From Synergistaceae bacterium (lineage in GTDB: Bacteria; Synergistota; Synergistia; Synergistales; Aminobacteriaceae), in NCBI GenBank assembly GCA_017443945.1, contig JAFSXS010000029.1:1-34266 (forward strand): DNA of 34,266 nt. The letters are read 5' to 3'. Below, piece by piece: positions 2,703 to 22,799 of the stretch. The notes beneath the pieces were generated by a model. That model did no database searches. It saw only the letters and a program-made list of their open reading frames with translations, and was not told the DNA's origin. Position 1 is the first letter of the stretch. Each line of letters starts with the position of its first letter. The position numbers and the translations under genes were made by a program.

Positions 2703-3575
2703 TTAGGCCTTCTTTCCTGCATCGAGACCGACTCGGCATTTGTGATCTGCTTCGCGTTCTTTGTCCTTAAAAGCTGTCATTCTCTGCATCATGTTATCAA
2801 AGTCGACTTCATAGCCGTTAAACTCTGGTCCGTCAACGCAAACAAATTTTGTCTCGTTACCTACTTTGACACGGCAGCAACCGCACATACCAGTACCATC
2901 AATCATGATAGTGTTCAAAGATGTAGTAATAGGAACGCCGAAGGGTTTAGCAGCTGCAACACAGAATTTCATCATGATAGCGGGGCCGATTGAAACTATT
3001 TCGCTGACTTTTTCGCGCTCGCAAACTTCTTTTAACGGTTCTGTAACAACAGCTTTGCGGCAGTAAGACCCGTCATCAGTTACGATTATAAGTTCATCAG
3101 AGGCCTTGCGCATTTCGTCTTCAAAGAATAACAAATCTTTTGTGCGTGCGCCAATGACTGTAATAACTTTATTGCCGATTGCGTGATTTGCTTCTACGAT
3201 TGGATGAAGAGGAGCGATTCCGATTCCTCCGCCTATGCAAAGGACTGCGCCGTCTTTCTTCTCGATGTGAGTGGGTCTTCCTAATGGGCCGACTAAAACC
3301 GGAATATTATCGCCAACGTTGAAATTCATAGAAAATCTGCGTGTAGTTGCGCCGACTGTCTGGAAAACTATAGCGATCCAGCCTTCTTGTGCGTTTGCGT
3401 CTGCGATTGTGAGCGGTATTCTTTCGCCGTAATCTTCATCAAGCTGGAAAATAATAAACTGTCCTGCTTTTCTGTTGCGAGCTATTTCAGGTGCCTCAAC
3501 TTTGTAGTAATAAACGCTTTGATCTCTCTCTTTATCGTATGAGAGCTGTCGTTTTTCGAGTATCTTATGCAACAA
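2703..3575 (-). CDS. nfnA: NfnA: FAD/NAD-binding [2Fe-2S] subunit of ferredoxin:NADP oxidoreductase
   Basis: 290 aa of the dihydroorotate dehydrogenase electron-transfer subunit (PyrK-like)/sulfide dehydrogenase beta family. An N-terminal FAD-binding barrel includes RIPLTIAD (near residue 53), and the NAD domain has CIGGGIGIAPLHP (near residue 112). The C-terminal motif DGTGMCGCCRV, followed by a later VCVDGPE, supplies the [2Fe-2S] ligands. The start is one of two tandem TTG codons: the first (3575-3573) is 5 nt from a GGGGG-containing ribosome site, the second (3572-3570) 8 nt, and the second would give the more typical N-terminus MHKILEKRQLS. It is the first gene of the nfnA-nfnB operon and has its own promoter upstream. 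Confidence 0.9.
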   Translation of the reverse strand: MLHKILEKRQLSYDKERDQSVYYYKVEAPEIARNRKAGQFIIFQLDEDYGERIPLTIADANAQEGWIAIVFQTVGATTRRFSMNFNVGDNIPVLVGPLGRPTHIEKKDGAVLCIGGGIGIAPLHPIVEANHAIGNKVITVIGARTKDLLFFEDEMRKASDELIIVTDDGSYCRKAVVTEPLKEVCEREKVSEIVSIGPAIMMKFCVAAAKPFGVPITTSLNTIMIDGTGMCGCCRVKVGNETKFVCVDGPEFNGYEVDFDNMMQRMTAFKDKEREADHKCRVGLDAGKKA

Positions 3576-3627
3576 ATATTCCCCCTCAATTAGTAAAAAA
3601 TTATTGAAAAGTTTATTACAACTGCAA

Positions 3628-3656
3628 ATAATAAGCCTAAATCATAATTTAAACAA
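3628..3656 (-). promoter_or_regulatory. Sigma70-type promoter for nfnAB
   Basis: On the minus strand TTGTTT (plus 3651-3656) and TATTAT (plus 3628-3633) are separated by exactly 17 nt, about 50 nt before the nfnA start. No hairpin terminator for rho is evident in the rho-nfnA gap, so some read-through from rho is possible. Confidence 0.5.
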
Positions 3657-3673
3657 GTAAAATAATTTCGAGT

Positions 3674-5242
3674 TTACGCTAATTTTATCGAGTTCAGGAA
3701 ATCCGCGTTAGTGTCCGTCTGCTTGAGTTTGTCGAGAATCAAATTTAACGCGCCTGCTTCGTCAATGCCTGCTATTCTTTTGCGTAATATCCATAAGCGT
3801 TTAAGCTCTTCATCAGGGATTAATAATTCTTCGCGTCTTGTGCCTGATTTAGTGATATCGATTGCGGGAAAAATTCTTTGTTCTGCGAGTTTGCGCGATA
3901 AATGCAGTTCCATGTTTCCCGTGCCCTTGAACTCTTCATAAATTACATCGTCCATTCTGCTGCCGGTATCAGTTAAAGCAGTTCCGATAATAGTTAATGA
4001 GCCGCCTTCTTCAAAATTTCTAGCTGCGCCGAAAAATCTTTTAGGGAAATACAAGCCAGACGGGTCAAGACCTCCCGACAAAGTACGCCCGGACGGAGGA
4101 ACAGTCAAATTTGAAGCTCTTGCAAGTCTAGTGATTGAGTCAAGGAGGATAACTACATCTCGTTTTGCTTCGACGAGGCGTTTTGCTTTCTCAAGTGCGA
4201 GATTAGCGACTCTGATATGTTCGTCGGCTGGTCTGTCAAAAGTTGAGGCAATAACTTCACCGTCAATAGATCTTGCAATGTCAGTAACTTCTTCTGGGCG
4301 TTCGTCGATTAAGAGGGCCATTATTATAATATCCGGTGAATTTGCTGCGATTGCCCGTGCTATGCGCTTTAAGAGGGTTGTTTTACCTGCTTTGGGAGGA
4401 GAAACAATTAAAGCTCTCTGACCTAGTCCGATTGGTGCAAACATGTCTATTAATCTTGTAGCTAAATCTTTAGGATCTGACTCAAGTGATAATCTGCTGT
4501 CAGGAAAAATCGGGGTCAACTGCGCGAACATGGGTCTATGCCGTGAATGCTCTGGATCTGAAAAATTAACTGTCTCGACCCGTAATAAAGCCTCGTAATG
4601 TTCCTGATCTCTAGGAGGACGAATCAAGCCCCAAATCACGTCGCCATTTCTGAGGCCAAATCTACGAATTTGTGATGACGATAAATAAACGTCGCCGTCA
4701 GTTGGGAGCATTCCTTTAGGACGGAGAAACCCGAAATTTTCAGGCAATATTTCAAGAGTACCGCCGCCAAATCTGTAATTCATGCTTTCTGCCTGAGCTT
4801 TGAGGGTCGCGAGAATTAAATCATCTTTACGCATTGAAACTGGTGCACTGACGTTAAATTCTTTTGCGATTCTTCTCAAGTCGACGGCGTTTTTTGTTGA
4901 CAACATTGCATAAGTGTATTTCGGTTTAGGGTGTTGAATTAAATCGCGTCTTCCATAAGTCGGCCTTGTTTGATTTTCTTCTTGTTCGCCGTTGTCAAGG
5001 TCTTCGTTATCGTCAATAATCGGCTGTTCGTCAAAATCGTTATTGTATGTATTCTGCTGGATTTCGTTCACTTCCTGTTTCAGCTCCTCCTGTAAAATTT
5101 CGGGGTCAGGCTGATTCTTGATAAAATCTTCAGAGTTTAAGAGCTCTGATTTAGGTTTTCTTCCGCGCCTTTTGGGTGCTGAGATAATTTCTTCCTGCTC
5201 TTGTGATTCTTCTTCTAATAATGATTTCGCTTTTCTTGGCAT
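3674..5242 (-). CDS. rho: Transcription termination factor Rho
   Basis: 522 aa from ATG 5242-5240, which has AAGGA 8 nt upstream. The frame stays open back to 5314, but those extra residues have no ribosome site. The first ~110 residues are a charged extension: basic KRRGRKPK patches, then a Gln/Asp/Glu-rich stretch, as in many Rho proteins of anaerobes. Then come the Rho N-terminal fold, an RNA-binding cold-shock-like domain (YRFGGGTLEILPENFGFLR), the Walker A loop SPPKAGKTTLLKR and Walker B region LLIDERPEEVTD. The Q/R-loop region with SITRLARASN is also present. The protein acts as a hexameric RNA helicase that releases RNA from stalled transcription complexes. It lies 74 nt downstream of pfkA. 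Confidence 0.95.
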   Translation of the reverse strand: MPRKAKSLLEEESQEQEEIISAPKRRGRKPKSELLNSEDFIKNQPDPEILQEELKQEVNEIQQNTYNNDFDEQPIIDDNEDLDNGEQEENQTRPTYGRRDLIQHPKPKYTYAMLSTKNAVDLRRIAKEFNVSAPVSMRKDDLILATLKAQAESMNYRFGGGTLEILPENFGFLRPKGMLPTDGDVYLSSSQIRRFGLRNGDVIWGLIRPPRDQEHYEALLRVETVNFSDPEHSRHRPMFAQLTPIFPDSRLSLESDPKDLATRLIDMFAPIGLGQRALIVSPPKAGKTTLLKRIARAIAANSPDIIIMALLIDERPEEVTDIARSIDGEVIASTFDRPADEHIRVANLALEKAKRLVEAKRDVVILLDSITRLARASNLTVPPSGRTLSGGLDPSGLYFPKRFFGAARNFEEGGSLTIIGTALTDTGSRMDDVIYEEFKGTGNMELHLSRKLAEQRIFPAIDITKSGTRREELLIPDEELKRLWILRKRIAGIDEAGALNLILDKLKQTDTNADFLNSIKLA

Positions 5243-5316: not shown

Positions 5317-6282
5317 CTAATTCATTTTGTTGACTAAGCTCAACATCTCCGGGCTTAAAGATTTATGTTCGCTCCAAGCACGTTCTAACGGACTAAGCAC
5401 GAGTTTGTGATTAATATTTCCTACCATCATGCCGGATTTGCCGATCATGAGACTTTCTGTAGCAAATGCTCCCATTCTCGTGGCAAGAACGACATCAAAC
5501 GAGGTTGGGTGCCCTCCGCGCTGAATGTAGCCGAGCACTGTAACTCTTGCATCATAACCGCCTGCGTCCGCTAATTGTTCTTTCATTTCGGCAGCACTCA
5601 TAACACCTTCAGCGAGAATTATAAGAGTATGGCTCTTGTGTTCGGCGTAGGAATTCTTTAATAATTTCGTGAGATTTCCTATACTGAGCGGCAATTCAGG
5701 AACTACGGCATATTCTGCACCGGTTGCAACTGCTACTTCAAGCGCGAGAAATCCTGCATTGCGTCCCATTACCTCAACGACAAATAATCGCTGGTGACTC
5801 GACGCTGTATCACGTAATTTCATGATTGCTTCTAGAGCAGTATTTACGGCTGTGTCAAATCCGATTGTTTCATCAGTGCCGGTTATGTCGTTGTCGATTG
5901 TGCCGGGGATTCCTATTGTCGGGAACCCTAGATCGTGAAGAGCTTTTGCACCGTGAAAAGATCCATCACCGCCGATAACTACAAGTCCGTCAATTCCGGC
6001 TTCACGCATTTTTTCGAGAGCTTCCTCGCGTCCTTCAGGGGTCTTGAATCTTTCGCTGCGTGCGGTTTTAAGAATTGTACCGCCTCTGTGAATGATTCCT
6101 CCTACGGCTTTGCTGTCAAGTGGAATAAAATCGCCTTCGATTAAACCCTCGTAGCCTCTCATTACTCCGATGCACTCTTTATCATTGAACATACAAGTGC
6201 GTGCAACGGCTCGGACAGCGGCATTCATACCGGGTGAGTCTCCGCCGCTTGTAAGTACAGCGATACGCTCCATCTTATTCAT
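5317..6282 (-). CDS. pfkA: ATP-dependent 6-phosphofructokinase
   Basis: 321 aa, the normal bacterial PfkA length. The N-terminus has TSGGDSPGMNAAVRA; IGGDGS (near residue 104) is the ATP-type signature, where PPi-dependent enzymes usually have GGDD. The catalytic loop is GTIDNDI. EVMGRNAGFLAL and LGYIQRGGHPTSFD match fructose-6-phosphate and effector contacts. It phosphorylates fructose-6-phosphate to the 1,6-bisphosphate in cytoplasmic glycolysis. The first ATG has AAGGAAG about 13 nt upstream; a second Met at residue 4 is a possible alternative start. It sits between an exported protein gene (45-nt gap) and rho on the same strand. Confidence 0.95.
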   Translation of the reverse strand: MNKMERIAVLTSGGDSPGMNAAVRAVARTCMFNDKECIGVMRGYEGLIEGDFIPLDSKAVGGIIHRGGTILKTARSERFKTPEGREEALEKMREAGIDGLVVIGGDGSFHGAKALHDLGFPTIGIPGTIDNDITGTDETIGFDTAVNTALEAIMKLRDTASSHQRLFVVEVMGRNAGFLALEVAVATGAEYAVVPELPLSIGNLTKLLKNSYAEHKSHTLIILAEGVMSAAEMKEQLADAGGYDARVTVLGYIQRGGHPTSFDVVLATRMGAFATESLMIGKSGMMVGNINHKLVLSPLERAWSEHKSLSPEMLSLVNKMN

Positions 6283-6327
6283 AATATTAACAACTTCCTT
6301 TCGTGTGTTGTTGCATATATATTTTAA

Positions 6328-7095
6328 CTATTTTGACTGTAATTCGTCTATTCTTGCATTAACTTCGCTAGTTTCTTTCTCAAGTGCTGCTAATTGTTCT
6401 TGTAATTTACGTTTGTCAGCGTTTAATTTTTCCGTGCGCTTCAAGAGTCTGTCAATTTCGAGTCTGTTAGCTGCTCGGCCTCCTGAAATGCTGCCTCTGT
6501 CGCGGTTCAAGTCCCAGACCCACAATAAATCGCCCTGCGTTGACGATAGAGCAAAACAAATCGAGCTGTCAAATAAAATTCTTACGTCCTTTGCACCGTC
6601 TAAAATAGGTTTGCCCGTCTTTGGATCATAACGAGGGAAGAATACAAGACCATCACGCGCTCCCAAAACTTTGAAATTAAATCTTTTGTCGTAATCTATC
6701 GGAGAATATTTTTTTCCCTTGACTATTAATGTAATGTGCTTGTCGAAGGGTCCCGGATAAATTGGCATTCCGCGTATATACATATCGACATGGAAGGGGA
6801 TACACTCTGCGAGATTTAAATTTTTCAGGAGAGTATATTTGTAATTTTCCATTTCGTCGGCAGTCCACATATTTTTTTCTGCTTCGGCCAAGATTAAATT
6901 TTCGACGTACTCATTTGAATAATAAGTGATTTTGAGCTTAATGCTTTGGGAGTCGTCGTCTGCGGTTACCTCGATTTCATGAGACCAATTGCGTAATGCT
7001 GCGGGGTCTTGTGGTTTGGCTGCTCCGAGTGCGTATGAGCTAAAAACTGTGAGAATTAATAATGTTGCTAAAAATTTGATTCTGTATGAACTCAT
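6328..7095 (-). CDS. Exported protein of unknown function with C-terminal coiled coil
   Basis: 255 aa from ATG 7095-7093; an in-frame TTG at 7119 is unlikely because the AAGGA ribosome site lies between the two codons. Residues ~5-25 (KFLATLLILTVFSSYALGA) form a typical signal peptide with an Ala cleavage site. The mature part contains no motif I recognise. It is rich in Tyr, Asp and Lys and includes PGPFDKHITLIVKGKKY and GKPILDGAKDVRILFDSS, which suggests a beta-rich domain. The last ~45 residues (about 210-255) are a heptad-like helix dominated by Leu, Glu and Lys, consistent with an oligomerising coiled coil. It probably acts in the periplasm or at the cell surface. It lies upstream of pfkA on the same strand without a clear functional link. 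Confidence 0.65.
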   Translation of the reverse strand: MSSYRIKFLATLLILTVFSSYALGAAKPQDPAALRNWSHEIEVTADDDSQSIKLKITYYSNEYVENLILAEAEKNMWTADEMENYKYTLLKNLNLAECIPFHVDMYIRGMPIYPGPFDKHITLIVKGKKYSPIDYDKRFNFKVLGARDGLVFFPRYDPKTGKPILDGAKDVRILFDSSICFALSSTQGDLLWVWDLNRDRGSISGGRAANRLEIDRLLKRTEKLNADKRKLQEQLAALEKETSEVNARIDELQSK

Positions 7096-7251
7096 AATGA
7101 AATTTATTCCTTTCTGCAATATTTCACATGAACGTGAAAGATAAATTTTATGAGGGATTAAAAATTTTGCAAGTATTATACAATAAGTGAGCGAGATTTT
7201 TACATCATTAATCAGGCTGATTTATTTTTGCGTGGATTACGGGAAATTTAT

Positions 7252-7462
7252 ATTTTTGCGGGACTATGGGATTATTTCACGATTTGCGGTTATTGGCCTT
7301 GTGCGTTAATTTTGTGTGCTGCTGTAAAAGTTTATTTGCGGACTATGTGATTATTTTGCGATTACCGGTCTTATGCGTTAATTTGTGTGTGCTGTTATAA
7401 AGTTTATTTGCTGGTCATGCGATTATTTCACGATTTGCGATTATTGGTCTTGTGCGTTAAAC
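7252..7462. repeat. Three degenerate ~72-79 bp tandem repeats in a gene-free stretch
   Basis: The interval 7096-7535 holds no credible gene. Within it, a unit repeats three times: GCGGACTATG-like start, GATTATTT, CGATT(T/A)GCG-like centre, then TTATTGG(C/T)CTTGTGCGTTAA and TGTGTGCTG...AAAGTTTAT. The GCGTTA landmark occurs at 7303, 7375 and 7454, giving periods of 72 and 79. The first unit begins TTTTTGCGGGACTATGGGATT, nearly the same as the hairpin downstream of the flavoprotein gene at 22809 (TTTTTGCGGGAGAATGGGATT), so it may derive from duplicated terminator-like DNA. Confidence 0.6.
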
Positions 7463-7515
7463 TTTAAATCCGTTGAGAAAAAATGTAAATCTGCATAACG
7501 AAATATTTTCAGCTG

Positions 7516-7521
7516 TATAAT
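7516..7521 (+). promoter_or_regulatory. -10 box of the mnmG promoter
   Basis: TATAAT in the context GCTGTATAATTATA; the same GCTGTATAATT precedes alr. Transcription would begin near 7528, leaving a leader of only ~25 nt to the TTG start and almost none to the ATG at 7536. No good -35 is visible. Confidence 0.45.
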
Positions 7522-7553
7522 TATATAAAATTTTAATGGAGGGAATATTTTTA

Positions 7554-9440
7554 TTGTATAGAGCTTCATACGACGTAATAATAATCGGCGGAGGTCATGC
7601 GGGGTGCGAGGCTGCTTTATCGTCTGCAAGAATCGGTTGCAAAACTTTAATGCTAAATCTTTCAATCGACAACACAGCTTTAATGCCCTGCAATCCTTCA
7701 ATAGGAGGCCCGGCAAAAGGTCATCTCGTACGGGAAGTAAGCGCGCTGGGAGGCGAACAGGCTAAAGCGGCGGATTATGCAACTTTAATGATTCGCTGGC
7801 TCAATACTTCAAAGGGTGCGGCGGTTCGTGCATTGCGTGCCCAGTGTGATCCGGGATTATACAGCACTTATTACCGCAAATTATTGACAACGCAGGAAAA
7901 TCTTGACATTAATCAGGACGAGGCAATTAAAATTTTCACGCGCAATAATCAAATTACGGGCATAGAGACACGGCACGGGGCAATTTATGAGACTCGCGCG
8001 CTGGTCATTTGCGGAGGAGTCTATATCGGTGCAAAAATTTTTGTAGGCGATAAAATATTTAAATCCGGGCCGATGGGTCAGAATAACTCAGAAAAAATTT
8101 TAGACTCACTTCACGAACTCGGCATTAAAACAGGAACAATGCGCACAGATACGACACCTCGCCTGAATATTAACACTATAGATTTTTCACGCGCGACCCC
8201 TCAATTATCAGAAAATGAGCCTTTGTGCTTTGATTTCTGGAACGAACCGAAAATTTATGATACTTCAAAATATGCCTGTTATTTTTCCCGCACGACTGAA
8301 GCAACATATAATATTCTTTCGCAAAATATAAAACGTTCGCCGCTTGTTACTGGTGATGTAAATTCGCACGGGCCCCGATATTGTCCGTCGATAGAAGATA
8401 AATTTTTGAGATTTCCCGATCACATAACTCACCCAATAGTCTTTGAGCCTGTATCGCTGAATACAAATGAAGTCTACGTGCAAAATTTTTCGACGAGTCT
8501 TCCTTATGATGTACAAGTTGAATTAATTAGCACTCTTCCGGGCTGTGAGAACGCGAAAATTATCAAGCCTGGCTACGGAATCGAATATTATTATTTGCTG
8601 CCCGACCAGTTAAAACGCTCGCTCGAAAATAAAAATATTTCGGGTTTATTCTGTGCAGGTCAAGTAAATGGGACTTCAGGCTATGAGGAGGCCGCCGCAC
8701 AAGGTTTATTAGCGGGAATAAATGCAGCTTTGTTCGTGAAAAATTTAGAGCCTTTAACTCTTTCGCGCGATAATAGTTATTTGGGAGTTCTCGTTGATGA
8801 TTTGACGACCAAGAGCACTGACGAACCTTATAGAATGTTGACAAGCCGTTGTGAGCATAGATTATTATTGCGGTGGGATAACGCGATTCACAGATTGTCG
8901 GAATTTGGGCGCAAGGTCGGATTAATTGACGATTCAAAATGGGCAGTGCTTGAAGAAAGATTTACGCGCGAGAATGAAGAAATTTCGAGATTACAAAATT
9001 TGCGTATAACTCCTTCAGATGAGATTAATAAATTATGTGAGGAATTTGACGCAGAAATATTGACGAGTTCAACAAGTCCGGCGGAATTTCTAAAGCACAG
9101 GGGAGTCAGATATGAGCTGATTAATAAAATTTGTCCGTGCGATAAAGATTTAACCCGCGAAGAAATTTCACACATCGAGACCGAATTACGTTACACAGGC
9201 TATCTCGAACGCGAAAACAGGGTCGCAGCAAGATTAAAGGATTTCGACAACGCAAAGATCCCCGAAGATTTTGATTATGACTCTGTAATTGGCTTAAGGG
9301 CTGAATGTCTGCAAAAGTTGAAACACTTTAGACCTGATTCACTTGGCCACGCGTTAAGAATTTCCGGAGTAACGCCGACTGATGTGCAGTTAATTTCTGT
9401 TATATTAGCCCGCAATGAACGACGAAAAAATAAATCTTGA
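7554..9440 (+). CDS. mnmG: tRNA uridine 5-carboxymethylaminomethyl modification enzyme MnmG (GidA)
   Basis: 628 aa from TTG 7554. An ATG at 7536 would add six residues, but its own codons form the GGAGGG ribosome site and it lies only ~8 nt after the predicted transcript start, so TTG is preferred. YDVIIIGGGHAGCEAALSSARIG is interrupted by nothing and is the FAD Rossmann motif; NPSIGGPAKGHLVREV and GGEQAKAAD are MnmG signatures. DVNSHGPRYCPSIEDK and SGLFCAGQVNGTSGYEEAAAQG follow in the correct order. The C-terminal helical domain ends with HALRISGVTPTDV. With MnmE, the enzyme modifies U34 of certain tRNAs in the cytoplasm. The downstream DUF721 gene overlaps it by 26 nt. Confidence 0.95.
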   Translation: MYRASYDVIIIGGGHAGCEAALSSARIGCKTLMLNLSIDNTALMPCNPSIGGPAKGHLVREVSALGGEQAKAADYATLMIRWLNTSKGAAVRALRAQCDPGLYSTYYRKLLTTQENLDINQDEAIKIFTRNNQITGIETRHGAIYETRALVICGGVYIGAKIFVGDKIFKSGPMGQNNSEKILDSLHELGIKTGTMRTDTTPRLNINTIDFSRATPQLSENEPLCFDFWNEPKIYDTSKYACYFSRTTEATYNILSQNIKRSPLVTGDVNSHGPRYCPSIEDKFLRFPDHITHPIVFEPVSLNTNEVYVQNFSTSLPYDVQVELISTLPGCENAKIIKPGYGIEYYYLLPDQLKRSLENKNISGLFCAGQVNGTSGYEEAAAQGLLAGINAALFVKNLEPLTLSRDNSYLGVLVDDLTTKSTDEPYRMLTSRCEHRLLLRWDNAIHRLSEFGRKVGLIDDSKWAVLEERFTRENEEISRLQNLRITPSDEINKLCEEFDAEILTSSTSPAEFLKHRGVRYELINKICPCDKDLTREEISHIETELRYTGYLERENRVAARLKDFDNAKIPEDFDYDSVIGLRAECLQKLKHFRPDSLGHALRISGVTPTDVQLISVILARNERRKNKS

Positions 9441-9885: not shown

Positions 9886-12787
9886 ACATTGTGCCTTTGA
9901 CCTGCCAAAGTTTTATAATGCTGAAAGTATTTACATTCATGTTATCGCTGTCAGGATAATTTTCGCAATAAGTTCTGATTCTGTCCGAGCTGCTTAATTT
10001 CTTTAACTCCTCAATCGTATAAATCCCTGGAGCTTTTGCAATTCCGTCGATTAATAGTGCTGGTGTGTCCTCGATTGACATTAACGCATTTGACGTAATT
10101 AAATCCCCGCGAGAGTTAAAATCTTTGAACATCAGAAGCGCATCAGGGCGGAAACTGTCGATATAAACAGTATGATCAAAAATTTTATTTATAGTTTGAC
10201 TGTCTCCCCAACTATGATCTGACACAAAGACTATTCTTGTATTATCGTAGACTCCTGCTTTCTTGAGCTTTATTAGGAAATCTGCGAGAAATCTCATAAT
10301 ATGCACTTCAGTATAATAATGTTCGGGGATAATGCCGTCTACTAAAATGCCCTGCCCCTTAGTTTGAGGATAAGGATCTAATACAGGAAGTAGCGAATCA
10401 GGCTGCATATACCATAATGCATGAGATAATGTGCTATGTAAAAATTTAAATGTTGATTTTCCGTCGTCTGCCTGTACAAAATCTCCCATAAATTGAAGCG
10501 GTGCAAGATTAGCCAAGAAGGATTTGACTAACATCATTTCGCTTACTTGTTCAGATGCTCCCCATATCCATTGGCCAGTGTTGTACATCTTACTTCTTAA
10601 GCTGAACGGAATAGATCTAAATAATGACAGCACTATTAAAAATTGTGAAATATCTTCCCTATTTTGTATCTTGATTTCGATTCCGTTTTTATTTGCCCAG
10701 TTCAGCCAATAAGGTACATAATCATTCATCCAGTTATATTTTAGATTCAAGACTGATTCGGGATGTTTCAGTGCATTAAGATAAATTGGGTTATTAGTTG
10801 ATTCTGACATGACGGAGTCATAGCCGTTGCTCGTAAAAATATTTGGTAAGAATGATATTGCATTGCCGTATTTTTCTATAATTGATACATTAGGCTGCGT
10901 ATCATTAAGGGTGTTGGGCTTATAGTCCGGCCCTGCATAAATTGAAGGAGTCGAGAAAAAAGTTCTCGGACCTGTAGCAAGCGTATCAGGGAAATAAATA
11001 AATCCCTCGAAATCGCTTATAAATTCGGGATACTCAGCAAAAAATTTTTTGACATGTTCACCCGTGAAACCGTCAAGAAATATAGCAAATACGTTTTTAC
11101 CTGTTCTGCTGAAGCGCCAGAGTCTATTATGATATTCAGGGAAATTTACATTTTCAGTATTTATTAAATTATTGTCGTGTCTTATATTGAAATAACAATA
11201 AACACTCACTCCGCACATGGCTATTGAGATCAAGACAAATGTGATCACTAAATTTTTGATATATTTACGCCACACACAGAAAAATATTATCACGGTTGTT
11301 ATCGAAATGCTTAATAAATCTTTTATGGCCGCACGTTCAACTTTCATAACTCTTTCGTCTATAAATATTGCGTTGATGTTACCATAATTTTCAGTAAGCA
11401 CGAACGAATTTATAAACGCCATACACACGAGAAAAGCTGCAATAACAGCTAAAATATTCTGCACAAATTCAGGAATCAGCGGCCATATTAGAATAAGCGC
11501 AAATAATAACGTCATTCCATAAATGCTTATTTTCGAGATAGTCCCCGCAAGAGAATCCATAAAGAAATCAGGATCAGAACGATACGTAAGCGACGGATAT
11601 AATACACACACGAATATTATCGCAAATATTATCGACGAGAAAAACAGCGAATTTCTGTGATCATCAGTCAAACGCGAAGAAAAACTGCATATTTTTTCGC
11701 TACTGACGGGCAAAAGAAACGCGAGCAAAGCATACCCAAATAAAATTAATAAAAATGTAGATAAACGCAGAAAAACTTTCATCGGGAACTGCACATTTTT
11801 CATGTAAAAGAATATCGCTATAGTAAATACAGCAAAGCAAAATGTCTTAGCAATTAATTCACGAATCGTAAAGCCGCTTAATATAAATCTCGTATACAGC
11901 ATCCATGCAAAAACAGCCGGAATCATGAACAATAAATAATAAATATTCTGAAATGTATTTATCGAATTAATGACAGAACCTAAAGCATCATGAGTTATAT
12001 CTACAAATGTAGAATAAAAATGTGCGAAAAATATCCCCAGCACACTCATAGAAATTATCACTATAAAAGCATTCACGCAAATTTTCTTCCAGCCGGCCGG
12101 AACAAATCTATAATCAAGCACTCTCGCAATCTTATCACCGCCGAATATCCCGTAAAAATCTATATTCTTCACGAGCATTATAAAATTATTCGTCGTCCAA
12201 TAAATCAACAACGCCGACGGAGCATTATACAACATCACAAGAAATAACGCCGCAATTATAAACGCCTGCACCCGTTCACGTTTCGTAAATTTCTTAGCAG
12301 TAATCGCCGCAAGCACGTTAAAAACTGTCATCACGAACGGCAATAAATTTATCCCTGCAAGCAAATTATCAGGCTTCGACAAATCTTTTATCGCGTAAAA
12401 TGAGACACCTTTTATAATCTCAAGCTCCGAAAGCATTATATACGCAGCCATTAACGGTAAAAGCTGCACAAATAAATCAAGTCCGGATCTAATCGCATAA
12501 ATCGGATTATATGAATATCTCTTGTAAAGCTCGCTTAATTCCTCGTGCTGTTCGGCCCCGTGAAAAGTTTTCTTTATTTCTGCAATTTGAGGCGACAAAA
12601 TATTTTGTATCTTCCTCTCTTTGTCCTGAACTCCGGCAGCCCATTTAATAAACGGACGCAGCAAAATACTCATTACAACCGACAAAATCATTAACGAGAT
12701 TCCAAGATTGCCCGCAAAATAATTTATTCCCAAGTAAATTGCACGTAAAATAATTACTAACGGCTGAATGAAAATATTATATAACAT
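9854..12787 (-). CDS. Fusion of a YidC/Oxa1-like membrane insertase domain with a sulfatase/phosphoglycerol-transferase-like domain
   Basis: 977 aa. Residues ~1-210 resemble YidC2/Oxa1: IFIQPLVIILRAIY, the gNLGISLMILSVVMSILLRPF helix with its Arg, a cytoplasmic helical loop (ILSPQIAEIKK), FVQLLPLMAAYIML and YWTTNNFIMLVKN. Residues ~230-540 hold about ten hydrophobic segments. From ~565 a large exported domain resembles the alkaline-phosphatase superfamily: VFAIFLDGF (first metal Asp), GPRTFFSTPSIYAG (candidate catalytic Thr near 607), FLHSTLSH (~786) and VFVSDHSWGD (~860, metal Asp-His). Such domains transfer or cleave phosphoglycerol or phosphoethanolamine groups outside the membrane. It overlaps the upstream glycerophosphotransferase-like gene by 11 nt with a GGAGG site, pointing to one surface-polymer pathway. 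The exact reaction is unknown. Confidence 0.8.
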   Translation of the reverse strand: MLYNIFIQPLVIILRAIYLGINYFAGNLGISLMILSVVMSILLRPFIKWAAGVQDKERKIQNILSPQIAEIKKTFHGAEQHEELSELYKRYSYNPIYAIRSGLDLFVQLLPLMAAYIMLSELEIIKGVSFYAIKDLSKPDNLLAGINLLPFVMTVFNVLAAITAKKFTKRERVQAFIIAALFLVMLYNAPSALLIYWTTNNFIMLVKNIDFYGIFGGDKIARVLDYRFVPAGWKKICVNAFIVIISMSVLGIFFAHFYSTFVDITHDALGSVINSINTFQNIYYLLFMIPAVFAWMLYTRFILSGFTIRELIAKTFCFAVFTIAIFFYMKNVQFPMKVFLRLSTFLLILFGYALLAFLLPVSSEKICSFSSRLTDDHRNSLFFSSIIFAIIFVCVLYPSLTYRSDPDFFMDSLAGTISKISIYGMTLLFALILIWPLIPEFVQNILAVIAAFLVCMAFINSFVLTENYGNINAIFIDERVMKVERAAIKDLLSISITTVIIFFCVWRKYIKNLVITFVLISIAMCGVSVYCYFNIRHDNNLINTENVNFPEYHNRLWRFSRTGKNVFAIFLDGFTGEHVKKFFAEYPEFISDFEGFIYFPDTLATGPRTFFSTPSIYAGPDYKPNTLNDTQPNVSIIEKYGNAISFLPNIFTSNGYDSVMSESTNNPIYLNALKHPESVLNLKYNWMNDYVPYWLNWANKNGIEIKIQNREDISQFLIVLSLFRSIPFSLRSKMYNTGQWIWGASEQVSEMMLVKSFLANLAPLQFMGDFVQADDGKSTFKFLHSTLSHALWYMQPDSLLPVLDPYPQTKGQGILVDGIIPEHYYTEVHIMRFLADFLIKLKKAGVYDNTRIVFVSDHSWGDSQTINKIFDHTVYIDSFRPDALLMFKDFNSRGDLITSNALMSIEDTPALLIDGIAKAPGIYTIEELKKLSSSDRIRTYCENYPDSDNMNVNTFSIIKLWQVKGTMFKRENWTEIQ

Positions 12788-18810: not shown

Positions 18811-18898
18811 TTAAATTTGTCTCTCCTTATACGTCATGAAATAATTATATAAGAATTATGCTATGATTTAAAAAATTTACATGAGGAGATTAACATTT

Positions 18899-20233
18899 AT
18901 GCAGCGTTTCTTACAAGCTCAGGAGAAAATTTATGATATTGCATTGAACGAAATTAAGCACGGAAAAAAGCGCAGTCATTGGATCTGGTACATTTTCCCG
19001 CAACTTAAAGGGTTAGGCCATAGTTATAATTCAGATTTTTACGGGATTAGAGATTTAGACGAGGCAAGAAATTATTTATCACATCCGGTTTTAGGTGCTA
19101 GACTGCGTGAGATTACTGAAGCTCTATTGCAATTACCGGAAAATGACGCTTATAAAATTATGGGCGACCCTGATGATTTAAAGCTGCATTCTTGTATGAC
19201 TCTTTTTGCGTATATTTCTGAAGAGGGCTCAATCTTTCATAAGGCGTTAGATAAATTTTTTGCGGGTCAGATGGATTACGGGACTCTAAATTTGCTCAAG
19301 CCTAAAAATGTTTTGTCGTGGGATTCTGATTTATGGCTTAGTAAATTAAACGGTTTGTACCCTGATTATAAGGCTCTTAATCGCGAAGTCTGGGAGAATA
19401 CGTTTAAAATCGTCGAAGCAAATTATTACGAACTTCCGAACGGTGAAAGAGTCATAGTCCGCAGCCCTGATAATCCGCGCATAGAGTCAACTTTTTACGA
19501 GAAGGAATTTACAGCAAAGTTTGAGCCTCTCGACACGCCCGTAAAAATTTCTGTTGTACCTGATGATTGTCTTGATGTTGCTCATAAATGGGTTAATGAA
19601 GGTCTTGACGTTACTGTATTGAATCTCGCTAACAGGCAAAATCCAGGCGGAGGTGTCATTCGCGGTTCGTCAGCGCAGGAAGAATATTTATTCCATTGTT
19701 CGGATTACTACAAATTTTTATATATTTTCGCTTATTATGCGGAACGGTACGGACTCACGCTTTCGAGTCATCAATACCCTATGGATAGAAATTTTGGCGG
19801 AATTTATAGTCCGGGAGTTATTATATTTCGTGAGAATGAAACTCGCGGCTATGAATTAATAAAATATCCGTGGCAGGTCAATATGATTGCTGTAGCTGGA
19901 ATGGTAAACCCGGAAACAGAAATTATAAATGGTAAAGAATATATCATCCCTGAATTGGCCGAAGGTGTGAGAAATAAAATCCGCACAATTTACAGAATCG
20001 CCTGCGAAAATAATCAACGAAATTTAGTATTAGGTGCGTTAGGCTGCGGAGCTTTCCATAATCCCCCTGAACATGTCGCAAATTTATTTCTTGAAGTCTT
20101 GCGCGAGAAAGAGTTTAAAGGCGCGTTCAGTAAAATTTGTTTTGCAGTAAAGAGCCATCAAGCCCCCGAAAAAAGCGCGAATTATTTAATTTTCCGTGAT
20201 GTCCTTGACGGCGTTGTGATAAATAATGCTTGA
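18899..20233 (+). CDS. Fusion of a DUF1810 domain with a TIGR02452-like (microbial PARG, macrodomain) domain
   Basis: 444 aa from ATG 18899, with AGGAG 9 nt upstream; an earlier in-frame ATG at 18881 overlaps that ribosome site. Residues ~1-140 match DUF1810: QRFLQAQEKIYDIALNEI, SHWIWYIFPQLKGLG, YLSHPVLGARL and KLHSCMTLFAYI. Residues ~170-440 match bacterial poly(ADP-ribose) glycohydrolase-type macrodomains: VLNLANRQNPGGGVIRGSSA followed directly by QEEYLFHCSDYY, then VIIFRENETRGYE and VLGALGCGAFHNPPEHVANLF. The GGG(x)6-8QEE block holds the catalytic glutamates. The enzyme may remove ADP-ribose from macromolecules or act on an NAD-derived metabolite; what DUF1810 adds is unknown. It stands alone, divergent from galK. 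Confidence 0.85.
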   Translation: MQRFLQAQEKIYDIALNEIKHGKKRSHWIWYIFPQLKGLGHSYNSDFYGIRDLDEARNYLSHPVLGARLREITEALLQLPENDAYKIMGDPDDLKLHSCMTLFAYISEEGSIFHKALDKFFAGQMDYGTLNLLKPKNVLSWDSDLWLSKLNGLYPDYKALNREVWENTFKIVEANYYELPNGERVIVRSPDNPRIESTFYEKEFTAKFEPLDTPVKISVVPDDCLDVAHKWVNEGLDVTVLNLANRQNPGGGVIRGSSAQEEYLFHCSDYYKFLYIFAYYAERYGLTLSSHQYPMDRNFGGIYSPGVIIFRENETRGYELIKYPWQVNMIAVAGMVNPETEIINGKEYIIPELAEGVRNKIRTIYRIACENNQRNLVLGALGCGAFHNPPEHVANLFLEVLREKEFKGAFSKICFAVKSHQAPEKSANYLIFRDVLDGVVINNA

Positions 20234-20288: not shown

Positions 20289-22799
20289 ATGCGTAAAATT
20301 TGTCTTGCAGTAATTATTTCTCTTGTCATGGCTTCATGCGTTTACGGAGCGTCATTCACTCCCGGAACTTATGAGGGCAGGGGAAAAGGTTACAGCGAAA
20401 CCTCTGATGTAATAGTTCGTGTTACCGTTGATGACAAAGCTATCACAAAAATTGAAATCGACGCACCCGAAGAAATCCCGTTTGGTGTTCCTTTGTTCGG
20501 CAAATATGGCGATGCACTAATCGGACGCACTGACGGGAAAATTGACGCTGTCTCAGGCGCAACAATGACTCGCAACGGAATTTCACAAGCCGTCGAGAAA
20601 GCTCTTGCACTTGCACGAGGTGAGAAGCCCGAAGACACAAGCAAGCCCGTAACATTCACTCCAGGAACTTATGAGTCAGAATCAGAAGGTTACAACGGCC
20701 CTGTGAAAATTAAAGCAACTTTTACCGCCGACAAAATAACGGGAATTGAAATTATCTCACATCACGAAACAGAACACGTCGGCGACATAGCTTTTACTCT
20801 CATGATTCCGGAAATGTTGCAGGCTAACGGATCAGGGGTCGACGCTGTGTCGGGAGCAACTTTTTCAACGAGGGCACTACGCAACGCAGTCAATAACGCC
20901 GCTGAAATGGCCGGTTGCACAAATCTTGAGGCATTCAAACGCGCAAAAGTCATTCATAACGCACAAGATGATATAAAACTCGTCTATGATGTAGTAATCG
21001 TCGGTGCAGGTGGTGCAGGAGTGGCAGCAGGAGCTCAGGCGGCACAGGACGGCAACACAGTCTTAATCATCGAGAAAAATGCTGAAGTCGGCGGAAATAC
21101 TTTAGTGTCAGGCGGTCAATATCAAAGTGTCATGCCTTATTTAGTGTGGGATCCGCAAAACCCTGACGCTGAAACAGGAATATTTGCTTTCAATGGCCAG
21201 TCATACAAAAAAGTTAAATCCGTTCAAGGCTGCATTAAAGAATTGAAGATGATTCTAAATTGGAGCGAATCACCCTTTGACGCTGAATATTACAAGACTC
21301 ATGAGTACGTAGCCGGCGACGCTGAAGAACTCTCTAAACATGGTGTACACGCTGAATATTTGCCCGTTCTGCAGGCTCTCAAGAAAGAAATTAAAGCCTA
21401 CCTCGACTGGGCACAACCTAAACTCGACGCAGGAGTCCCGGAAAATAATTTAACGCTTTTCTCGACTCTCAATCTTCACATTTTCCAGACTTATTACGGA
21501 GGACTTAGACAAAGCGCGGACAAATCTACTTGGATTTACGGCAATGTTGATTTAGTCAAGCAGTTTGTTGAAGGCGGTCAAGGTCTCAAAGAATGGCTCG
21601 AGTCAATGGGTTCGACTTTCCACGATGACACACAGCCTACTCTAATCGGTGCATTATGGTACAGAGAAAATGAATTTGTCGGCGCAAATGTTGACACGGA
21701 CGGCGACGGTAAGCCCGAAGAGTATAAAGGCCGCTGGGGGACGTTCTTTGTTGCTCCGATTAATGCAATGTTGAAGGCTAATAAATTAAATCGCGTCATG
21801 ACACGCACTACAGTGAATGAGTTAATTTATGAAGGCGGACGCGTTATCGGTGTCAGAGCAACAGCAAACGACGGCACGAAAATTACTGCTTATGCCTCAA
21901 AAGGTGTTATTCTTGCGACTGGCGGTTATGCTGCAAATCTCGTGAAAGTTGTTGACGAAAATATTTATTGGTCGCCTGAATATCTCTCTACTACAACGAA
22001 GACAACAAATAGATCTTCTTTGCAGGGTAGCGGGATTGCAATGGCTCAAGCGGTCGGCGCACACGTTACGGGAATGGGGTTCACTCAATTAATGCCTATT
22101 TCTTGGATCGACAACGGTAATTTAGCTTTTGGAGGCGGAAATTATGCGTGCTGGATTAATCCTAACACGGGACACAGATTCGTTGATGAAGGCTCAGAGC
22201 GCGACGTTCTCTCACTTGCTGAATTTAAAAACGGTATGGACTACAAGGGCAGCAAAGGTGTTTTCTTAGAGTTTTACAATTCTGCGCAAAAAATGCCGGC
22301 TCCTACACAATTACCAGAAACAGGCGATTATCCCGGACGTTATTACAGGCGCAAAATTTCAGAGCTTCCCGAATTGTTCAAAGAATTAGGAGTCAAAGCT
22401 GATCCTAAAGTCGTTGAGCAGACAATCAGAGCTTATGACAAAGCAGTCATGACGGGCGGTGAATTTCCTGACGTGGGCAAAGCTATTGCATCGCGAACAA
22501 TTGGAAATGTCGAGAAGAACCCCGACGGAAGTTACAAGATTGACAGCTACGATTTAGATAATACAGTTATGACGATAAGACTCATGGCACCGAGCACACA
22601 TCACACAATGGGCGGACTAGTTGTTGACACTGGGCGGCACGTTTTGAATAGTGAAGGGCGTATAATTCCGGGACTTTACGCGGCTGGAGAAGTTACCGGC
22701 GGCATTCACGGAGGAAACAGACTCGGCGGAAATGCAATTGTAGAAATTTTTGTATCAGGAAGAACGGCAGCAAAGACTCTTAACGCCGAGAATCAATAA
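20289..22799 (+). CDS. Exported flavoprotein reductase: two FMN-binding domains plus a fumarate-reductase-like FAD domain
   Basis: 836 aa. Residues 1-20 form a signal peptide (KICLAVIISLVMASCVYGA); a lipobox-like MASC is present but weak. Two FMN-binding repeats follow (about 22-115 and 122-215), each starting FTPGTYE and each with a flavinylation motif: DAVSGATMT (near 85) and DAVSGATFST (near 185), where ApbE-type enzymes attach FMN to the Thr. From ~235 comes the FAD domain of the fumarate/urocanate reductase family: VVIVGAGGAGVAAGAQAA, EKNAEVGGNTLVSGG, HHTMGGLVVDT and GLYAAGEVTGGIHGGNRLGGNA. No heme motifs (CxxCH) are seen. It likely reduces a fumarate- or enoate-type acceptor in the periplasm for anaerobic respiration; the substrate cannot be read from sequence. 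A GAAGGAG site precedes ATG, and it is a single-gene transcript with a strong terminator. Confidence 0.88.
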   Translation: MRKICLAVIISLVMASCVYGASFTPGTYEGRGKGYSETSDVIVRVTVDDKAITKIEIDAPEEIPFGVPLFGKYGDALIGRTDGKIDAVSGATMTRNGISQAVEKALALARGEKPEDTSKPVTFTPGTYESESEGYNGPVKIKATFTADKITGIEIISHHETEHVGDIAFTLMIPEMLQANGSGVDAVSGATFSTRALRNAVNNAAEMAGCTNLEAFKRAKVIHNAQDDIKLVYDVVIVGAGGAGVAAGAQAAQDGNTVLIIEKNAEVGGNTLVSGGQYQSVMPYLVWDPQNPDAETGIFAFNGQSYKKVKSVQGCIKELKMILNWSESPFDAEYYKTHEYVAGDAEELSKHGVHAEYLPVLQALKKEIKAYLDWAQPKLDAGVPENNLTLFSTLNLHIFQTYYGGLRQSADKSTWIYGNVDLVKQFVEGGQGLKEWLESMGSTFHDDTQPTLIGALWYRENEFVGANVDTDGDGKPEEYKGRWGTFFVAPINAMLKANKLNRVMTRTTVNELIYEGGRVIGVRATANDGTKITAYASKGVILATGGYAANLVKVVDENIYWSPEYLSTTTKTTNRSSLQGSGIAMAQAVGAHVTGMGFTQLMPISWIDNGNLAFGGGNYACWINPNTGHRFVDEGSERDVLSLAEFKNGMDYKGSKGVFLEFYNSAQKMPAPTQLPETGDYPGRYYRRKISELPELFKELGVKADPKVVEQTIRAYDKAVMTGGEFPDVGKAIASRTIGNVEKNPDGSYKIDSYDLDNTVMTIRLMAPSTHHTMGGLVVDTGRHVLNSEGRIIPGLYAAGEVTGGIHGGNRLGGNAIVEIFVSGRTAAKTLNAENQ

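Follow-up and report, generated by a model that had tools for sequence, protein, structure and literature searches.

The window, a stretch of 34,266 nucleotides from a Synergistaceae bacterium (assembly GCA_017443945.1, contig JAFSXS010000029.1), carries a gene in which a DUF1810 domain is joined to a PARG-type macrodomain (Table 1). The longest open frame of this gene, 18881-20233 on the forward strand, is intact and encodes 450 aa. Its start codon is most likely ATG 18899 rather than ATG 18881, because a sequence resembling a Shine-Dalgarno site, AGGAG, lies 10 nt upstream of the former; the predicted product then has 444 aa. Residues are numbered here on the 450-aa frame, and 6 is to be subtracted for the 444-aa product. 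The initial annotation, made from the letters alone, had proposed that DUF1810 and a PARG-type macrodomain with a GGG...QEE catalytic loop share one gene, and both proposals were borne out: the two Pfam matches fall in a single intact frame, and the macrodomain contains the loop.

Two further genomes of the same genus, G050 and G073, carry the fusion as frames of 457 and 455 aa that are 74-75% identical to that of the window over 450-452 positions. Since both frames are intact, it is unlikely that the fused frame arose by assembly error. A flavoprotein gene (20289-22799), a single frame downstream of the window fusion, is common to the G050 and G073 loci; in G073 it is split into two frames (L032, G073:C139; 1040-2479 and 2527-3525, minus strand).

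Table 1. The fused gene and its parts in window coordinates, with residues of the 450-aa frame.
Feature	Position	Strand	Basis
Shine-Dalgarno-like AGGAG	18884..18888	+	read in sequence
Fused gene from its likeliest start, 444 aa	18899..20233	+	open frame and AGGAG; homologous intact fusions in G050 and G073
DUF1810 domain (PF08837), residues 7-139	18899..19297	+	Pfam E 5.2e-56; predicted structure matches 2jek
PARG-type macrodomain module, residues 143-446	19307..20218	+	PF10021 on 173-318, TIGR02452 on 170-439; boundary from L063, L074 and L084
Presumed PARG catalytic loop GGGVIRGSSAQEE, residues 256-268	19646..19684	+	aligns with the same loop of solved PARG chains
Second macrodomain loop GALGCGAF, residues 385-392	20033..20056	+	aligns with solved PARG chains

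The C-terminal half belongs to the microbial PARG family

The C-terminal half matched the Pfam family PARG_cat_microb (PF10021; E 2.7e-26, 93.2 bits against a cut-off of 23.5) and TIGR02452 (E 7.2e-40, 137.2 bits against a cut-off of 50), and its solved relatives by sequence are 5zdf/5zdb (8e-21) and 3sig (5e-19). It contains the motif NPGGG-x7-QEE at residues 254-268, in keeping with GGG-x(6-8)-QEE, which we take to be the catalytic-loop signature of microbial PARG. In family and in both macrodomain loops this half is like the known microbial PARG proteins (PF10021/DUF2263, TIGR02452; 3sig, 5zdb), from which the window protein differs by the added N-terminal DUF1810 and, as a subfamily trait shared with L063, L074 and L084, by an extra start at about residues 143-170. 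The C-terminal half is an ordinary member of the microbial PARG family and, by homology and with its loops intact, a predicted hydrolase of ADP-ribose linkages. Relatives with other N-termini align from residues 127-147 onward, which places the start of the PARG module near residue 143 and leaves next to no linker between the two domains.

Members of the same PARG subfamily occur as a lone protein (L074) and, in the window's genus, together with LRR_5-like and RCC1-like repeats in an 819-aa protein (L063; G064:C85, 207-2666, minus strand), which is 59% identical to the window's PARG over 320 residues and whose LRR_5-like match lies just below the Pfam cut-off. A Prevotellaceae locus (L084) holds a PARG of this subfamily (41%; 5962-6915) and a stand-alone DUF1810 (10869-11282), both on the plus strand and about 4 kb apart, with LRR_5, C92-peptidase-like and DUF6717 genes between them. 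The PARG half of the window gene also has a relative in giant phages: Lak phages and Bacillus phage G encode a PARG-like protein that is 29-35% identical to it. Each half is present in plasmid and phage records, but no single place there covers 80% of the fusion.

DUF1810 shares the fold of Rv1873 and keeps a set of polar residues

The N-terminal half matched DUF1810 (PF08837) with 188.7 bits against a cut-off of 25, over positions 4-136 of the 136-position model. Its relative by sequence is 2jek, the structure of Rv1873 (E 9e-30), and its predicted structure (pLDDT 95.4) matched 2jek with a Z of 25.6 and an rmsd of 1.4 over 140 residues. The next fold match had a Z of 4.6, a class that denotes a common arrangement at most; no known ADP-ribose enzyme was matched in this search, 2jek alone being above noise. 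Family and fold are thus the same in Rv1873 and in the window's N-terminal half, but the solved chain is a single domain of 145 residues with no assigned function, whereas the window copy is joined to a predicted ADP-ribose hydrolase.

In an alignment of 154 DUF1810 sequences, 40 columns were conserved at 90% or more, including E24, K30, H33, W34, W36, Q41, E61, D98, K101 and T135. Apart from isolated exceptions, such as one PARG fusion that has C instead of H33, the DUF1810 domains fused to ARH, A1S_2505 or PARG keep K30, H33, W34, W36, Q41, E61, D98 and K101. A polar set kept in this way, in a domain mostly found by itself, would suit a ligand site and perhaps an active site.

The known ADP-ribosylhydrolase families are given as the macrodomain, ARH/DraG and NADAR (YbiA-like) families, NADAR being the third beside the other two, in a published account (PMC11833690). 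A kinship of DUF1810 with NADAR, raised by a resemblance of motifs, was considered and set aside as unsupported rather than refuted. Sequence profiles were negative, NADAR being absent from the 21 Pfam families matched by 54 DUF1810 sequences at an E limit of 10 (the HMMER filters drop most matches above 0.1), and the fold search gave only 2jek above noise, with no NADAR entry among the matches listed and a Z of at most 4.6 in every row other than 2jek.

The DUF1810-PARG fusion within the genus

DUF1810 was found in 32 of 185 genomes of the window's phylum, 30 of which belong to the window's genus (43 genomes). Three frames of the phylum, of 453, 459 and 468 aa from stop to stop, hold the DUF1810-PARG fusion. 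A branch with an SH-aLRT of 95 sets their DUF1810 domains apart, within a set of 19 rows that itself has an SH-aLRT of 95 and is made up of 16 unfused copies and these 3 fused to PARG; because the three domains group in this way, the fusion seems to have arisen once, within the genus. Both DUF1810 and PARG were present in 17 of the 43 genomes of the genus, DUF1810 only in 13, PARG only in 5 and neither in 8, and co-occurrence of the two genes was not significant in these 43 genomes (Fisher p = 0.33).

Two loci of the genus, from the 20 phylum loci whose surroundings were examined, link DUF1810 to ARH genes. In L049, genes for ARH, glyoxalase, DUF1810, carbonic anhydrase and metallophosphatase form a tight row on one strand. 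In L034 an ARH gene, whose solved relatives are DraG and ARH3, overlaps the start of DUF1810.

Fusions in other bacteria and on viral contigs

We scanned the best 80 of at least 591 named-genome loci, from a scan that gave at least 593 stretches, and 38 loci on viral contigs, together 118 DUF1810 frames, of which 20 were long and 10 of these were scanned with Pfam. DUF1810 carries a C-terminal ADP_ribosyl_GH domain in L133 (Prevotellaceae), L135 (Bacteroides) and L164 (a viral contig), and an N-terminal A1S_2505 domain in L138 (Prevotella). L133, L135 and L138 were the only fusions to a domain of ADP-ribose-hydrolase type in the best 80 of at least 591 named-genome loci. Like the window protein, the ARH/DraG (PF03747)-DUF1810 proteins of Prevotella and its relatives, usually about 390-430 aa in total, have DUF1810 joined directly to an ADP-ribosylhydrolase; they differ in that the hydrolase is of another family and the order is sometimes reversed.

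Eight DUF1810 proteins on viral contigs (L177, L179-L181, L183, L185, L186 and L188) are extended at the C-terminus by about 80-110 residues; the extension of L177, the one scanned among these eight, had no Pfam match.

In a draw of Bacteroidota genomes, DUF1810 was present in 29 of 395, and 43 of the 45 matches lay in frames of at most 217 aa; the only long frames were in the genome of L135 itself and in L202, an ARH fusion. Among 398 genomes from the phylum of G186, a Ruminococcaceae genome, only 1 had a DUF1810 match, G186 itself. DUF1810 was found in 56 of 398 Pseudomonadota genomes, with one confirmed fusion, a 473-aa protein of Thiocystis (L203 in G187; 6475-7896, minus strand) that joins DUF1810 to an RNase_T exonuclease domain. 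Seven long Pseudomonadota frames (L287-L293) had no match to our own PARG, ARH and A1S queries and resemble N-terminal frame extensions; six more Pseudomonadota matches, in frames of 200-234 aa, lie outside this inspection by our own queries.

The exonuclease fusion and an N-terminal ASCH domain joined to DUF1810 in L100 suggest a different setting, in which DUF1810 would serve nucleic-acid repair: the substrate would be ADP-ribosylated RNA or DNA, the hydrolase would strip the tag and DUF1810 would handle the nucleic acid or base. Removal of ADP-ribose from RNA 2'-OH by PARG macrodomains and from guanosine by NADARs is reported (PMC11833690). We consider such a role unlikely, given that each of the two fusions was seen in one example, that no nucleic-acid-binding fold stood out in the DUF1810 fold search and that genes for the ADP-ribosyltransferases DarT and KptA were not found in the window's genome.

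The A1S_2505 partner is predicted to have a macrodomain fold

No solved relative of A1S_2505 was found by sequence search. The model of its N-terminal domain (pLDDT 92.3) matched the alphavirus macrodomain 3gqo (Z 11.8, rmsd 3.0 over 132 residues), TARG1 (2l8r; Z 11.6, rmsd 2.9 over 127) and the DarG macrodomain (5m3e; Z 11.0, rmsd 3.0 over 125), and nearly all the fold matches listed were macrodomain entries. Foldseek alone gave weak matches (best E 2e-3, none at or below 1e-3). The model points to a macrodomain fold for A1S_2505, and from this fold the domain may be expected to act on ADP-ribose. The A1S_2505 family, for example L138:547-963 and L207-L286, is phage-associated and without assigned function.

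Recurrent fusions in the family of a Prevotella genome

The fusions were most informative in the family of the Prevotella genome G192, in which 49 of 221 genomes gave 55 DUF1810 matches. Of these matches, 27 lie in frames that also hold a domain of ADP-ribose-hydrolase type, 16 with ARH/DraG and 11 with A1S_2505; in this count, 11 matches in frames of 61-165 aa, from outside the loci examined, stand as unfused, and the 27 include pairs of nearly identical sequences (L315/L316, L319/L323). We examined 40 loci of the family, picked mainly for long frames, and among their 41 DUF1810 frames 15 contain ARH and 10 contain A1S_2505 (the 25 of 41 is no rate, as long frames were favoured). These 25, together with G544 (L202, ARH) and G192 itself (L138, A1S_2505), make up the 27. 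ARH was called in the 40 loci by our own profile, and Pfam confirmed the call in L310 and in four others by frame (G1469, G1435, G1423 and G1440). In eight further long frames of the family, DUF1810 was the only Pfam match.

Domain order varied. ARH precedes DUF1810 in L310, L332 and L336 and follows it in the other ARH fusions, while A1S_2505 follows DUF1810 in L331 and precedes it in the other A1S_2505 fusions. One 973-aa frame (L310; G1505:C205, 3623-6544, minus strand) holds ARH, a PTP-SAK phosphatase-like domain, ARH and DUF1810 in this order. L358 has the same pieces as two genes, one for an ARH-phosphatase-ARH protein and, 6 nt after it, one for DUF1810. An ARH gene lies 4 nt downstream of an A1S-DUF1810 fusion in L325, and the DUF1810 frame of L339 overlaps an A1S gene.

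Two other loci deserve mention. In L350 (G1468:C4, 1715-3337, minus strand) A1S_2505 and ARH share a frame of 540 aa, in which a stretch of about 120 unassigned residues separates the two domains and DUF1810 was not detected. In L308 (G1514:C29, plus strand) the ARH part of a DUF1810-ARH fusion is split over two overlapping frames (3233-4114 and 4057-4530), by assembly error or decay.

Architectures, tree and gene neighbourhoods

DUF1810 is combined with three hydrolase types, the PARG macrodomain, the macrodomain-like A1S_2505 and ARH, in at least five architectures (PARG-C, ARH-C, ARH-N, A1S-N and A1S-C), and both domain orders are seen. The three types belong to different families and differ in chemistry but have a substrate class in common, which for A1S_2505 is predicted from the fold. 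It adjoins separate ARH genes in four further loci, L325, L358, L049 and L034, the last two in the window's genus. On the DUF1810 tree (137 columns, with many forks unresolved) the ARH label needs 8 changes, at least 2 of them forced by starred branches, and the A1S label needs 3, at least 1 of them forced in this way. The tree left out L345, which has a very long branch, L310, which was kept in the conservation alignment, all viral loci but L164, every second locus of the L287-L305 series (the odd numbers), duplicates known as such and any domain shorter than 110 residues.

A conserved DUF1810 operon was not found: 73 close same-strand neighbours matched 82 Pfam families (E 1e-8), of which the first 25 were listed and no family came up in more than 3 of the proteins, and PADLOC gave 7 single matches. 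The neighbour genes came from our own simple frame picker rather than from annotation. The 73 are part of 100 neighbours, a set that excludes viral loci, neighbours of fewer than 90 aa and one duplicate locus; of the 27 omitted, four (two of L049, one of L084 and one of L087) were covered separately, and the others, including those of L202 and of L288 onwards, were dropped without a rule. DUF1810 usually makes up a whole protein, about 140 aa long. Most copies sampled from outside the G192 family are unfused, and their neighbours are varied.

This diversity of neighbours bears on whether the fusions carry a functional meaning. It could be that the bacteria in question often join small enzymes and that DUF1810 is one mobile piece of several, shuffled among partners with no functional link, as might be read from the LRR_5-like and RCC1-like repeats on the same PARG subfamily in L063 and from the ASCH and exonuclease fusions of L100 and L203. 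ARH in the G192 family has further partners too, GH92 and FG-GAP among them: in 101 of its genomes, 76 ARH matches were counted, and 5 of these lie in DUF1810 fusions. The recognised partners of DUF1810 are, however, uneven, comprising three hydrolase types for one substrate class in both orders, and the same sets recur as adjacent genes (L325, L358, L049, L034). We regard shuffling of this kind as very improbable.

A role for DUF1810 in ADP-ribose metabolism

The initial annotation read the fusion as tying DUF1810 to ADP-ribose or NAD metabolism, and the frames shared with ARH or A1S_2505 in both orders, 27 of the 55 matches in the G192 family, support this reading. It had proposed a survey of DUF1810 fusions and neighbours for genes of ADP-ribosylation, and named links to unrelated functions in most genomes as the finding that would speak against it. 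The fusions agreed with the proposal. The contrary finding was half borne out: the neighbours were varied, no Pfam family recurring in more than 3 neighbour proteins, and one ASCH and one exonuclease fusion were seen.

Because fusion and adjacency to such hydrolases recur, DUF1810 is likely to work in ADP-ribose metabolism. We consider it probable, from these sequence comparisons, that the window gene encodes a two-domain protein for the removal of ADP-ribose. The PARG macrodomain half would hydrolyse ADP-ribose linkages, and the DUF1810 half would act as its partner, on the same mark or on the ADP-ribose set free. Joining DUF1810 to a hydrolase would then be useful whichever hydrolase fold serves. 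Since its partner is exchangeable among three hydrolase types, DUF1810 presumably does something that all of them need, which may be binding the ADP-ribosylated substrate, removing a linkage that the partners leave, or consuming ADP-ribose.

Within this link to ADP-ribose, DUF1810 could be a reader or targeting module that is not an enzyme, binding ADP-ribose or a modified macromolecule and bringing the hydrolase there. Its attachment to already complete hydrolases at either end and the direct abutment of the domains are consistent with such a function, and a binding pocket could well be formed by the strongly conserved W34, W36, F39, P40, Q41, D98 and K101. If it served targeting only, DUF1810 would be expected to occur attached more often than it does, most copies in the samples drawn being stand-alone proteins of about 140 aa with varied neighbours, and we hold this competitor of catalysis to be possible but somewhat unlikely. 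The usual occurrence of DUF1810 alone and its near-invariant polar residues suggest instead that it is most likely an autonomous ligand-binding domain, and probably a catalytic one. A more specific proposal is that DUF1810 forms a fourth superfamily of ADP-ribose-processing enzymes beside macrodomains, ARH/DraG and NADAR, which would cleave a linkage that its partners cannot or degrade released ADP-ribose; the fusions would be two-step erasers, and Rv1873 of M. tuberculosis would be a member. We offer this proposal tentatively and rate it as rather doubtful.

A DUF1810 structure has been solved since 2007 (release date of 2jek). In the accessible parts of the open-licence literature (PMC5025739 and PMC5624866 included), a body of text that excludes most subscription papers and all preprints, we found no assigned function for DUF1810, PF08837 or Rv1873 and no link of these to ADP-ribose, nor did we find the DUF1810-PARG fusion or the pattern of three hydrolases described there. 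The recurrent fusion to three unlike types of ADP-ribose hydrolase gives DUF1810 a concrete and testable biochemical context, and, if the reading is true, it would lengthen the short list of domains known to read or erase ADP-ribosylation. A structure-based survey (PMC5624866) gives Rv1873 as a putative ATP binder, which agrees weakly with an adenine-nucleotide ligand for DUF1810.
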